From a virus, in IMG/VR virus record IMGVR_UViG_3300010391_002558, positions 1 through 34,496 of that record: DNA of 34,496 nt, one strand, 5' to 3'. A model generated the notes under the pieces. It had not been told where the DNA came from and did not search any database. It saw nothing but the letters and a program-made list of their open reading frames with translations. Numbering within the stretch: position 1 is the stretch's first letter; each line of letters opens with the position of its first letter. Position numbers and translations under genes: made by a program. Shown piece by piece: positions 3,031 to 33,317 of this stretch.

Positions 3031-4179
3031 ATGATAAAAGGATTAACGGACCGAGAGGCGAGGTTTCCGAGGATCGGGATTCTTAGAAAAGGCGGACCAA
3101 AACAGGCGGATGGAAATATGGGACAGGATTTGCCGTATTTCCGTTTTGTGTCGGGGGACCCAGAGATTCTGAAAAAGTTCCATGATATTTATGGAACAGA
3201 ACCAAAGGATATAAATATTTCATTGCCTTACCAGACTGTTGAGGAGAATTTCCATTGCTGGCGAGAGGAACGGATTGCCGGAGGGCTTGTGCATCGGTGT
3301 AACGGAGAGCGGACGGTTATGTATATGGATAAAACAACAAGGCAATATGTGACGGATCCGCAGAAACAAATTAAATGCCCTGGGAATTGTGCGCCGGTGG
3401 GACGTCTCCAGGTAATCATCCCGGAACTGAAACGATTTGCGTTTGTAGAAGTGATTACAAGTTCGATTTGGGATATTATTGCGATCCAGGAAAGCCTGCT
3501 ATCGGCATTCCAGGTGCGGCATGATTTACGTGGGATGCCGTTTATTTTGAAGCGTGGACCGAGGAAGATCAGCACTCCCAGGAAGGACGGCAGACGGGTA
3601 ATGATGGAGAAATCGCTGCTATCCATTGAAATAGGGCCTGTATGGGCAGAAAAACATTTATCGGAATTGGAGCGACTGGCGCTGCCCGGTGCGCAGGAGC
3701 CGATTGTGGTGGAGAAGGAGGACGAACCCTCCTTCGCTCCTGGGGGATCTTCGGAGGGCGGGTCTGATGAGATCCCGATGGATTATGAGGGATGGGAACG
3801 GCCTGAGGGGGGAAACGAGACTGAATTAATCGACACGGACAAACACGAACAAACACAGACTGCAAAAGCAGGAGGGCAACCAGCGCCGGCGCAGAATTAT
3901 TCCATTGATGACGAGGAGAACGAGAAAGCGCTACGGCTGCATGAATTGGTCATAGAGATAGTGACCAAGTCTGGGGATCCGTATGAGCAGGTCATGAAAT
4001 CTATGACAGCCAGGCCGGGACAGGCTGAGACCGGGAAGCTGGATAAACCAGGTGTAAAATCAATTCATGAGTTTTTCCAATTCAAGCATATAAACGAGGC
4101 TTATCATATTGTGGGCATGAAGCGATTGGATGAAGCAATCGGCTTGGCGGAAGAGATTGTGAATGGGACGCGGCTATAA
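3031..4179 (+). CDS. Recombination directionality factor-like protein (phiC31 Gp3-like)
   Basis: A 382-aa protein. The N-terminal ~220 residues match my memory of the Gp3-like directionality factor family: MIKGLTDREARFPRIGILRK, then DLPYFRF, a WREE..GLVHRCNGE segment and putative metal-binding Cys at C90, C116 and C120. In phiC31-like systems this factor switches a serine integrase to excision. Residues ~233-245 (PSFAPGGSSEGG) and ~268-280 (DTDKHEQTQT) are in-frame copies of dispersed repeats A and D, lying in an acidic linker before a C-terminal helical domain. No integrase is visible here, so its partner would have to lie outside the window. Confidence 0.6.
   Translation: MIKGLTDREARFPRIGILRKGGPKQADGNMGQDLPYFRFVSGDPEILKKFHDIYGTEPKDINISLPYQTVEENFHCWREERIAGGLVHRCNGERTVMYMDKTTRQYVTDPQKQIKCPGNCAPVGRLQVIIPELKRFAFVEVITSSIWDIIAIQESLLSAFQVRHDLRGMPFILKRGPRKISTPRKDGRRVMMEKSLLSIEIGPVWAEKHLSELERLALPGAQEPIVVEKEDEPSFAPGGSSEGGSDEIPMDYEGWERPEGGNETELIDTDKHEQTQTAKAGGQPAPAQNYSIDDEENEKALRLHELVIEIVTKSGDPYEQVMKSMTARPGQAETGKLDKPGVKSIHEFFQFKHINEAYHIVGMKRLDEAIGLAEEIVNGTRL
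3727..3760 (+). repeat. Family A element inside the directionality-factor gene
   Basis: CCCTCCTTCGCTCCTG ... TCTTCGGAGGGC, in-frame, encoding PSFAPGGSSEGG in a linker. The outer CCCTCC/GGAGGG arms are intact; the inner stem is degraded. Confidence 0.7.
3832..3860 (+). repeat. Family D repeat (GACACGGACAAACACGAAC type)
   Basis: In-frame in the directionality-factor gene, encoding DTDKHEQTQT about 70 nt after the family-A unit. Confidence 0.7.
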
Positions 4180-13948: not shown

Positions 13949-14151
13949 GATATTATATCGAGGCATTTACGAAACCAGGAGATTTTATTTTCGATCCTTT
14001 CCTGGGGGGCGGGACATCGGCAGCAGTATGCAAGGGGATAGGGAGAAGGCTGATCGGGATTGATAATGATAAGAAAGCCTTTAAGGTCAGCGTAGAGAGG
14101 GTGAGGAACCAGATTCCGCAGGCTGGGGATCAGATTGTGATGGAGATGTGA
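13945..14151 (+). CDS. C-terminal part of broken DPPY-type DNA methyltransferase
   Basis: Encodes MRYYIEAFTKPGDFIFDPFL then GGGTSAAV...GRRLIGIDND, the AdoMet-binding motif I and the end of the methyltransferase. Its frame continues upstream as HKWG-stop-DEHT, where the stop is TAG (13930-13932) at a position that is Gln (HKWGQ) in relatives. Beyond that lies KFKPRYNVLG, joined by a frameshift to the DPPY half. It could be made separately from the ATG overlapping the upstream stop, but has no strong ribosome-binding site. Probably a decayed gene. Confidence 0.65.
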   Translation: MRYYIEAFTKPGDFIFDPFLGGGTSAAVCKGIGRRLIGIDNDKKAFKVSVERVRNQIPQAGDQIVMEM

Positions 14152-16703: not shown

Positions 16704-16717
16704 ATTGTAATTTAAAG
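16704..16717 (+). promoter_or_regulatory. E-box ATTGTAATTTAAAG
   Basis: 13 nt upstream of the zinc-ribbon gene start; identical to the copy before the protease gene. Confidence 0.5.
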
Positions 16718-17196: not shown

Positions 17197-17233
17197 GATA
17201 AACACAGACAAACACACGGACGGACACAGACAC
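17197..17233 (+). repeat. Family D repeat before portal gene
   Basis: Units of ACACAGACAAACACACGGAC fill the gap between gpW and the portal GTG start, leaving no Shine-Dalgarno. Confidence 0.7.
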
Positions 17234-18870: not shown

Positions 18871-19755
18871 ATGGGCGAGAAATATAAAGACATGCATTTC
18901 AGGGCGGCGGAAATCCAGGAACGGGCGATTGATGAGAAAAACCGGACTGTGGAGGTGATTTTCTCATCGGAGACGCCGGTATCTTCATGGTGGGGCTACC
19001 CGGAAATTCTACTCCATACGGATGAAGCGGTTGATTTAAGTCGGCTGAAGACCGTGGCGGGGGTGCTTTTCAATCATGATCCGGACCGGATTGTGGCAGC
19101 TATTGAGGAAGCCTGGATTGACAAGGAAACGAGGACGGGTCGGGCGCGGATCAAGTTTGATGAGGATGCAGCAGCGCTGGAAATCTTCGGGAAGGTGAGG
19201 AGCGGCTCCCTGCGCGGAGTCAGCGTTGGATTTCTGATTGCGGAAAACGGATCTGAGAATGTGGCGGAAGGTGAAACAAAGGAAGGATTCAAGGGTCCGG
19301 TGGTGCTGGTGAGGAAATGGACGCCATACGAATTCTCTTTGACTCCGATTCCGGCGGATCAGAATTCGATGATCAAGAGGGCGGAACTGGTGAAGAGGAC
19401 GCTGCCCTCCTTCGCTCCTGACGGAGCTACGGAGGGTAAAGAAGAGACTGGGGAGGATCACGGACAGGCACGGACGGACACGGACACACACGGACCCGCC
19501 TCCATGGAGGGCAGGGAGAAGGTCATGGCGGAGCTCAGGAATGTGCGGAAGCAGGCGGGATTGGCGGGGGAATTGGAATATGGGATTGACCTCTTCATCG
19601 AGGGAAGATCGGTGGAAGAGATCGGGAAGGCGCTGATCGAGAAAATGAAGGAAAAGCGGTTGCCGCCAGTGCCTGTTGCGGTACGGGGCGAGGCTTCGGG
19701 ACAGCCGGGGAAGGGTGGAAAAGACACGAAGGAGATTGTGAAGAAATTCAAGTGA
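18871..19755 (+). CDS. HK97-type prohead protease (S78), repeat-containing tail
   Basis: A 294-aa protein. The first ~170 residues follow the U35/HK97 protease pattern: RTVEVIFSSETPV, AGVLFNHDPDRI (catalytic His), GSLRGVSVGFLI (catalytic Ser region) and WTPYEFSLTPIPADQ. It cleaves scaffold and capsid N-termini inside the prohead. Residues ~179-210 (PSFAPDGATEGK, then ARTDTDTHGPA) are encoded by an A repeat followed by a D repeat. A helical C-terminus (MAELRNVRKQAGLAGELEYG) follows, possibly scaffold. The start follows an E-box and GAGG. Confidence 0.85.
   Translation: MGEKYKDMHFRAAEIQERAIDEKNRTVEVIFSSETPVSSWWGYPEILLHTDEAVDLSRLKTVAGVLFNHDPDRIVAAIEEAWIDKETRTGRARIKFDEDAAALEIFGKVRSGSLRGVSVGFLIAENGSENVAEGETKEGFKGPVVLVRKWTPYEFSLTPIPADQNSMIKRAELVKRTLPSFAPDGATEGKEETGEDHGQARTDTDTHGPASMEGREKVMAELRNVRKQAGLAGELEYGIDLFIEGRSVEEIGKALIEKMKEKRLPPVPVAVRGEASGQPGKGGKDTKEIVKKFK
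19405..19436 (+). repeat. Family A element inside the protease gene
   Basis: CCCTCCTTC-GCTCC-TGAC-GGAGC-TACGGAGGG: outer and inner stems are both intact. In-frame, it encodes PSFAPDGATEG. Confidence 0.75.
19459..19497 (+). repeat. Family D repeat inside the protease gene
   Basis: Units of CACGGACAGGCACGGACGGA, in-frame, encoding ARTDTDTHGP; about 20 nt after the family-A unit. Confidence 0.75.
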
Positions 19756-19820: not shown

Positions 19821-19839
19821 TGATCGGAGGTAGATGAAA

Positions 19840-20315: not shown

Positions 20316-20369
20316 GTCCTCCTTCGTCCCGCTTGAGGCGGGACTATGGAGGACGATCACAAAGTGATC
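20316..20369 (+). repeat. Family A element with second hairpin, before capsid gene
   Basis: GTCCTCC/GGAGGAC outer arms enclose GTCCCGC-TTGAG-GCGGGAC. Directly after comes GATCAC-AAA-GTGATC, whose 3' arm abuts the capsid Shine-Dalgarno (GGAGG). Confidence 0.75.
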
Positions 20370-20382
20370 GGAGGAATAGAAA

Positions 20383-21659: not shown

Positions 21660-21690
21660 AACACGGACACACACGGACTGACACGGACCC
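21660..21690 (+). repeat. Family D repeat after capsid gene
   Basis: Units of ACACGGACACACACGGACTG start 3 nt after the capsid stop; a family-A element follows 24 nt later. Confidence 0.75.
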
Positions 21691-21713: not shown

Positions 21714-21752
21714 CCCTCCCCTGCCAAAGGCGGGGCTACGGAGGGCAGGGAG
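21714..21752 (+). repeat. Family A element before the exported-protein gene
   Basis: CCCTCC and GGAGGG (21740-21745) flank CCTGCC-AAA-GGCGGGG. CAGGGAGG follows and serves as the ribosome-binding site. Confidence 0.7.
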
Positions 21753-21758
21753 GATTAT

Positions 21759-22163
21759 ATGAAAACATTCAAGTACGGTCTGGCGCTTTTGATCTTGGCA
21801 CTTGTGGCGATTGCGATCCCTATTCTGGCGGGGGATTTTTTGTATCCTGCGGTTGCGGTTGCAAATGGCGGGACGTATGGGACAGCAACCATTGGGAGAA
21901 AGACGGGTCAATTTACCCTGACCTATCTGATGGTGGTCCCGGACACGTTCACCACGGGCACCCTCAAATTGCAGATCCTGACAGATGAGAGCGCAGTGTT
22001 TTATGAATCGGGCAGCATAACCAGCGGAACTGCCGTAGAATTGGTCACGAATACGGATTCAAAGCCTGCCAAGCCCATTAAATCGAATTGGACGATCAAG
22101 ATGATCCATAGCGCAGCTACGTCCAAGACCACCAGTCACAAATTATATTATTTATTGGAATAA
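21759..22163 (+). CDS. Exported or membrane-anchored small protein
   Basis: A 134-aa protein with an N-terminal signal-like helix (YGLALLILALVAIAIPILAG, residues 6-25) and a beta-rich Thr/Gly domain (TYGTATIGRKTGQFTLTYLM, TFTTGTLKLQILTDES). It sits right after the capsid gene, where soluble head proteins are expected, so a signal peptide is odd. GGGAGG before the ATG is part of a family-A element. The extended upstream frame overlaps the capsid gene out of frame and is rejected. A terminator-like hairpin follows. Confidence 0.65.
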   Translation: MKTFKYGLALLILALVAIAIPILAGDFLYPAVAVANGGTYGTATIGRKTGQFTLTYLMVVPDTFTTGTLKLQILTDESAVFYESGSITSGTAVELVTNTDSKPAKPIKSNWTIKMIHSAATSKTTSHKLYYLLE

Positions 22164-22209
22164 CCTCTTTTCCCGAATCGCCCGACTCATCGGATCCCAG
22201 TCCCGGCAG

Positions 22210-22239
22210 CCCCCCTTGCGGTGAAGAACGCAAGGGGGG
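22210..22239 (+). terminator. Strong hairpin, likely terminator
   Basis: An 11-bp perfect stem (CCCCCCTTGCG / CGCAAGGGGGG) closes an 8-nt loop (GTGAAGAA). ACCTTATTTA follows, a weak U-tract. It lies after the capsid-region gene and before the head-tail joining genes. It could attenuate transcription to favour capsid over tail expression. Confidence 0.6.
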
Positions 22240-22250
22240 ACCTTATTTAG

Positions 22251-23194: not shown

Positions 23195-23224
23195 ATGGGA
23201 ATTATAGGAAGAATGGGACTTATG
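23194..23224 (+). repeat. Family B repeat at gene start
   Basis: ATGGGAATTATAGGAAGAAT followed by GGGACTTATG; nearly identical to the copy at 22251 for 21 nt. Confidence 0.75.
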
Positions 23225-29425: not shown

Positions 29426-29462
29426 GCCCTCCATAGCTCCGCGGGGCGGAGCTATGGAGGGC
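29426..29462 (+). repeat. Family A element, perfect 17-bp hairpin
   Basis: GCCCTCCATAGCTCCGC pairs perfectly with GCGGAGCTATGGAGGGC across a GGG loop. AAGGAG and the fibre-gene ATG follow within 11 nt. Confidence 0.85.
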
Positions 29463-30739: not shown

Positions 30740-30780
30740 CCCTCCTTCGCGGTCATTCATTGGATGACCGCTATGGAGGG
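30740..30780 (+). repeat. Family A element before the membrane-protein gene
   Basis: CCCTCCTTC, GCGGTCAT and ATGACCGC (inner stem, 7-nt loop), TATGGAGGG. The 3' arm and the following CAGGGGGCAGGG precede the ATG. Confidence 0.75.
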
Positions 30781-30792
30781 CAGGGGGCAGGG

Positions 30793-31122
30793 ATGATAAC
30801 TGTGCTGGTGATGATATATTTCTCGAAGCGGGGGTTCGGGGCAAGGGCGATGCTTGCGGGGCTGGTGATATGCGTTTGCCTGGACCTGGGGGTTTTGACA
30901 GTTATCGCTCATAATTTCTGGGAGATGAGGAGAAAATCGGAGATGGTGTTCAATCGGGTGAGGGTGGTGGATTTGGGGAAACTAAAAGGGAAAGGACACA
31001 CGGACGAACACAGACGAGCACAGACGAACACAGACAAAGAAATAGTTATAAGGGTGGGGACGGATGGAAAGGTTGAGGTTATTGTGGAGCCGGGAGTAGA
31101 GGTAAAAAAGATAAAAAAATGA
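30793..31122 (+). CDS. Small membrane protein with repeat-encoded loop
   Basis: A 109-aa protein. The N-terminal half has hydrophobic segments (MITVLVMIYF; MLAGLVICVCLDLGVLTVIA) suggesting one or two membrane spans. The C-terminal half is soluble and beta-like (EIVIRVGTDGKVEVIVEPGV). Between them, HTDEHRRAQTNTD is encoded by a family-D repeat. Codons upstream of this ATG belong to a family-A hairpin. It overlaps the next gene by 4 nt. A holin-like role is possible but unsupported. Confidence 0.5.
   Translation: MITVLVMIYFSKRGFGARAMLAGLVICVCLDLGVLTVIAHNFWEMRRKSEMVFNRVRVVDLGKLKGKGHTDEHRRAQTNTDKEIVIRVGTDGKVEVIVEPGVEVKKIKK
30994..31037 (+). repeat. Family D repeat inside the membrane-protein gene
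   Basis: Four units of the CACAGACGARCA type, in-frame, encoding HTDEHRRAQTNTD. Confidence 0.75.
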
Positions 31123-33240: not shown

Positions 33241-33306
33241 CCCTCCTTCGCTCGAGCTGACGCTCGAGCTATGGAGGGCGATCATGCCATAGGCATGATC
33301 GGAGGG
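33241..33306 (+). repeat. Family A element with second hairpin, before last gene
   Basis: CCCTCCTTC, GCTCGAGC-TGAC-GCTCGAGC, TATGGAGGG. Next comes CGATCATGCC-ATA-GGCATGATCG (10-bp stem), flush with GAGGGCAGTGAGG before the ATG. Confidence 0.8.
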
Positions 33307-33317
33307 CAGTGAGGATT

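Follow-up and report, generated by a model that had tools for sequence, protein, structure and literature searches.

Two short repeats lie in frame in a linker of a phage recombination directionality factor (RDF) and again, in the same order, in a linker of the prohead protease of the same phage. We consider it likely, at a probability of roughly 0.75, that they are independent in-frame copies of two interspersed families such as those of bacterial genomes, most likely genomes of the host group, and that they sit in linkers which tolerate extra residues. Both families, called A and D here, are real: they occur inside and outside genes and in phage and bacteria alike, and A is under structural constraint. 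The window is the whole stretch of DNA analysed, here a viral record that is 34,496 nt long.

Paired repeats in the linkers of two phage proteins

The features of the two genes are as follows.

3031..4179, + strand: gene for a Gp3-like RDF, an ORF of 382 aa with Pfam PF18897 at residues 15-186 (E 3.8e-22)
3727..3758, + strand: A palindrome in the RDF gene, read as PSFAPGGSSEG; decayed, hairpin z -0.38
3834..3860, + strand: D array in the RDF gene, 3 heptamers with period 10, one with 1 mismatch; 0/200 shuffles
18871..19755, + strand: S78 prohead protease gene, 294 aa; PF04586, phrog_4523, phrog_617
19405..19436, + strand: A palindrome in the protease linker, read as PSFAPDGATEG; hairpin intact, RNA fold z -4.56
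19459..19495, + strand: D array in the protease linker, 4 perfect heptamers

The earlier note had claimed that A is followed in frame by D in the RDF linker and that the same order recurs in the protease, and both claims agree with what we find. In the RDF, both repeats lie C-terminal of the PF18897 domain in an acidic linker, the A copy having the sequence CCCTCCTTCGCTCCTGGGGGATCTTCGGAGGG and the D array running CACGGACAAA CACGAACAAA CACAGAC, which codes within DTDKHEQTQT; in the protease, the linker carrying them sits behind the catalytic domain. The A copies of the two genes are identical at 28 of 32 positions (among the differences, CTAC and GAGC of the protease copy are CTTC and GATC in the RDF copy) and have a common inner stem unlike that of the other five window copies, so the coding pair resemble one another more than they resemble the rest. 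A structure of the protease predicted from its single sequence had a mean pLDDT of 36 and gave no usable model.

A is a hairpin with a constant foot and a variable stem

The window holds seven copies of A, the two in genes and five between genes, the latter being:

20317..20353, + strand: A palindrome, intergenic, 5' of the major capsid start; fold z -6.11
21714..21745, + strand: A-related palindrome, intergenic, preceded by a D array, the order being D then A; fold z -2.19
29427..29461, + strand: A palindrome with perfectly matched arms, just 5' of a start codon; fold z -8.89
30740..30780, + strand: A palindrome lying 5' of ORF 30793-31122; fold z -6.50
33241..33278, + strand: A palindrome, intergenic; fold z -6.06

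As a control for chance, consensus searches of the window were compared with searches of 200 dinucleotide-preserving shuffles of it, and exact A was found four times in the window and never in the shuffles. The element is a hairpin made up of a constant foot, CCTCCTTCG...CTAYGGAGG (in fuller form YCCTCCTTCG...CTAYGGAGGR), an internal loop and a variable, self-complementary inner stem; read on the opposite strand it becomes RTAG-stem-CGAA, somewhat like a tagged REP. Six of the seven window copies outdo shuffles in RNA folding (z -2.2 to -8.9, five of them at -4.6 to -8.9 and one at -2.2), and in the folds of four of these six the outer stem is set off from the inner one by the same 3x3 internal loop. 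The RDF copy does not fold better than shuffles owing to changes in its foot and stem. The earlier description of the repeats as palindromic elements holds for the A family, though not for the RDF copy as it now stands, and it fails for D, which is an array of heptamers with period 10.

Structural constraint was assessed on 161 distinct copies, in which the foot is fixed by the search pattern and the next outer pair is free to vary. That free pair was Watson-Crick in 151 of the 161, mostly C-G or T-A, against 73.8 expected from base frequencies, and the inner stems were completely different in sequence while most remained complementary. In the copy at 29427-29461 the internal loop has been lost, TTCG having become ATAG, and the left arm is now the exact complement of the right; one arm looks as if it had been corrected on the other, and such correction could explain how stems change and yet stay paired. 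A role for A as a rho-independent terminator was considered and rejected for the copies read, as no T run follows the hairpin. Directly 3' of the A hairpin, at 20353-20378 and 33278-33310, stands another hairpin whose stem varies, CGATC...GATCGGAGG, followed by a ribosome-binding site; GTGATCGGAGG also occurs 5' of the gene at 19834.

Heptamer arrays and other elements at gene junctions

The D family consists of the word CACRGAC followed by three free bases, so that words recur every 10 nt, or one helical turn, and it forms no palindrome. Its window total is five arrays, those in the RDF and protease genes and three more:

17215..17231, + strand: short D array, intergenic, before the portal gene; 2 heptamers
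21662..21688, + strand: D array, intergenic, directly 3' of the capsid stop codon
30999..31035, + strand: D array inside the small ORF 30793-31122; 4 perfect heptamers

Triplets of D words, allowing at most one mismatch, were observed six times against none in the 200 shuffles. A third family, B (ATGGGA-N3, period 9), lies at gene junctions, with 10 triplets observed and again none in the shuffles:

1400, 2702, 12796, 14146, 16957, 18762, 19752, 22252, 23195, 27288, 28443, + strand: B arrays at gene junctions

The B array at 23195 forms the start codon of the next gene, and those at 14146 and 19752 contain the stop codon of the previous one. A further junction motif, resembling ATTGTAATTTA, is found at 16704, 18843, 19795, 22294, 28478 and 29397, often after a B array and before a ribosome-binding site. 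Its stricter form, ATTGTAATTTAWWRT, had no match in 14 Hydrogenedentota genomes and is therefore, at that stringency, not a shared host repeat; the motif is perhaps a signal of the phage's own. At 22205-22240 lies a terminator-like hairpin, CCCCCCTTGCGGTGAAGAACGCAAGGGGGG, after the gene that ends at 22163. A limited search of the literature by sequence found no description of D-like arrays, which is weak evidence that none exists.

Occurrence in bacterial genomes and viral contigs

The core of A was found in at least 119 bacterial genome stretches from many phyla, the matches listed including Patescibacteria, Opitutae, Lentisphaerae, Planctomycetota, Omnitrophota and Nitrospira; viral contigs supplied a further 25 stretches with it. 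The bacterial copies stand in every kind of gene context and are oriented either way. Of 68 Hydrogenedentota genomes, 25 contain the D family, the richest with 147 matches, against control counts of 0-6; there it often lies soon 3' of stop codons and also forms inverted pairs about 50 nt apart. D was also present in 12 of the 195 genomes from the phylum to which a Lentisphaerae MAG belongs. B arrays are abundant in Hydrogenedentota, with matches in 29 of 60 genomes and none in the controls. The A pattern was absent from 64 of the 68 Hydrogenedentota genomes, D-rich ones among them, and numbered one to seven exact copies in each genome having any. One Hydrogenedentota genome, G233, has A, B and D together, its A having the 35-nt form seen in the window at 20318. 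Since these repeats are held in common, the host is probably a member of Hydrogenedentota or of a neighbouring group, an assignment drawn solely from the shared repeats.

In another genome, G278 (L291, L294, L296, L298 and L300), A stands at the apex of a longer inverted repeat, GTGTTTCGCTT...ACAAGCCGC...GCGAAAGACGGTG, as though it were nested inside a MITE-like element. Two viral contigs of about 40 kb, L143 and L131, carry both A and D, their A inner stems being 24 nt long and largely self-complementary; the pieces of these contigs that were compared gave no protein match to the window.

In-frame insertion in cellular genes

Cellular proteins provided insertion sites that could be compared with related proteins. 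In the threonyl-tRNA synthetase of a Portnoybacteria MAG, the A copy (24 nt) coincides with eight residues that are missing from 1nyq, the best-matching solved enzyme; in the oligopeptidase A of an Opitutae MAG, it falls within a stretch that has no counterpart in 4ka8; and in the isoleucyl-tRNA synthetase of a Flammeovirgaceae MAG, it lies inside 26 residues without a counterpart. The reading frame in which A is translated in the window (SFAxATE, as SFAKATE or SFAEATE) is used again at L023, L095, L108, L119, L129 and L134. For D, a copy lies within residues 185-239 of a HrpA-like helicase, in a genome from the Verrucomicrobiota search; this segment joins the RecA1 and RecA2 domains, which in HrpA are only a few residues apart. 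Judged by these alignments, A is an in-frame insertion in three cellular genes and D in one, and the earlier likening of the coding repeats to Rickettsia palindromic elements is apt as to their mode of action.

Other candidates were not counted. Copies of D in several long ORFs of G+C-rich genomes were set aside because such ORFs may be spurious, the helicase being the only case with domains of one protein on both sides, and D copies following the PMT_2 domain in two glycosyltransferase-like proteins (L224 and L250) aligned too poorly to count as one site.

The earlier note had proposed that absence of the repeats from homologues of the two phage proteins would mark them as insertions. In the alignments, the linkers of homologues at the repeat sites are different or absent, and the homologues, below 40% identity for most of their length, are too diverged to show an empty site. 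No relatives of the phage were found in the viral contigs searched with its RDF, protease and terminase proteins. We infer that the repeats in the RDF and the protease are likewise insertions.

Alternative explanations

The two linkers might be ordinary low-complexity acidic linkers whose likeness to A and D arises by convergence in coding for Pro, Ser, Gly, Thr and Asp. The variability of both linker sites, the low-complexity tails also seen in RDF homologues and the degenerate state of A and D in the RDF are all compatible with this. However, the linker DNA matches same-strand copies that lie outside genes in the same genome, neither A nor D arose in any of the 200 shuffles, and D, owing to its 10-nt period, passes through all three frames, which is unlike the outcome of selection on residues; we regard convergence as very improbable. 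Another alternative is that the A hairpins by start codons are RNA elements controlling translation or mRNA processing, with the coding copies as by-products of the same spread. Four intergenic copies (20317, 21714, 29427 and 30740) do have a start codon shortly downstream, all window copies of A and D, as of B, are on the coding strand, and the 3' arm GGAGG resembles a ribosome-binding sequence with which the 5' arm CCUCC would pair. Nevertheless, the A hairpins have separate Shine-Dalgarno-like sequences downstream, and the freedom of bacterial A as to context and orientation does not fit such a role, so that we hold this alternative to be possible but doubtful.

The earlier note had also argued that the same pair of repeats in two unrelated genes points to mobility, with A and D travelling as a single compound element. 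The identical order and orientation in the RDF and protease genes, together with the closeness of their A copies, speak for such an element, and A is modestly enriched near D in the window (3 of 7 copies within 80 nt, P about 0.003, a figure to be taken as a guide only because its null, in which copies were placed at gene junctions, was built after the data had been seen). G233, moreover, has a D-like run within 70 nt of two of its seven A copies, as compared with 3% of intergenic points, and one of these two lies inside the array. A compound element should nonetheless have constant order, spacing and ends at several places, and this is not what is found: the gap from A to D is about 75 nt in the RDF, about 22 nt in the protease and about 219 nt at ORF 30793, the intervening DNA is unrelated, and the order is reversed to D then A at 21662-21688 and 21714-21745. 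For four of the seven window copies of A the nearest D is more than 200 nt away, most A copies in G233 also lack a nearby D, and a search elsewhere for a strict A-then-D pattern, as the note had suggested, found it absent from the bacterial genome and viral contig collections. The compound reading is thus already largely refuted, and we think it improbable; a common preference of A and D for the same tolerant places, or the use of D as a target, fits better.

Proposed origin of the linker repeats

If the linker repeats are independent copies of two host-type families, A would be moved by a host enzyme that acts on the hairpin and reads the foot and internal loop of its single-stranded form; TnpA-REP, for comparison, recognises GTAG and a bulge (PMC8266576). 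Both families would reach the phage during replication in a repeat-carrying host, and copies in genes would persist only when the frame stays open and a flexible linker is hit, selection keeping these. The insertions in the RDF and the protease are probably neutral, and the decayed A copy of the RDF has the look that would be expected of a neutral passenger.

A wider reading, which we put forward tentatively and think rather unlikely to hold, is that A is one very widespread hairpin element whose foot and internal loop are read by a putative enzyme while the inner stem is rewritten with each copy, and that it moves between phyla and into genes by way of phages, D being another, undescribed kind of heptamer array, phased with the helix and attracting A. 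Phages as carriers would help to account for the same hairpin in many phyla. The combination of a constant foot with variable self-complementary stems makes what the moving enzyme reads a testable matter, for which the tRNA synthetase insertions are clean sites. Intragenic REPs are known from bacteria; here, comparable insertions are found in a phage, in two proteins relevant to its life cycle, alongside a second family that is not palindromic.

Comparison with known repeat systems

Short heptamer repeats stand in tandem between genes in cyanobacteria. D resembles these in having seven-base words in tandem at intergenic sites, but differs in the three free bases between words and hence in its 10-nt period. 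REP mosaics (BIMEs) and REPINs are similar to the present case in that repeats cluster with other repeats at the same junctions, and D forms inverted pairs in Hydrogenedentota; they differ in that A and D are unrelated families at inconstant spacing.

The closest likeness is to the GTAG-tagged REPs, which, intragenic ones included, are described from many bacteria in several phyla, Verrucomicrobia among them (Di Nocera et al. 2013, PMC3733652). Like these, A is a palindrome of the 20-40 nt class, folding as a stem-loop in every window copy except that of the RDF and sometimes intragenic in flexible linkers, with GTAG beside the stem and alternative complementary bases within it. The REPs are of high copy number and mainly extragenic; A has seven copies in 34.5 kb of phage DNA, five of them intergenic, and one to seven exact copies in each Hydrogenedentota genome having any. 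A differs in having an extra constant outer stem, CCTCC/GGAGG, which places the tag inside the hairpin with no free end: its RTAG, facing CGAA, is not at an unpaired end but enclosed by an outer stem of some 6 bp. Nor was an association with RAYT genes found: no copy of A lay within 1.5 kb of 30 Y1_Tnp genes, genes which 16 of the 18 genomes searched carry. The present case further differs in being set in a phage and in including D, a family without a palindrome.

Intragenic REPs in flexible linkers may be neutral, Opitutus terrae is among the genomes richest in them, and the Rickettsia palindromic elements are the classic case of such insertion (PMC3733652). From their description, A is like the Rickettsia elements in being an in-frame palindrome in unrelated protein genes, although it belongs to other organisms and, at 24-40 nt, is shorter than the palindromic insertions of RPE-1 (PMC3733652). 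Being in frame and absent from related proteins in the threonyl-tRNA synthetase, oligopeptidase A and isoleucyl-tRNA synthetase, A is, by this analogy, an element that appears to work in the manner of intragenic REPs and Rickettsia palindromic elements.
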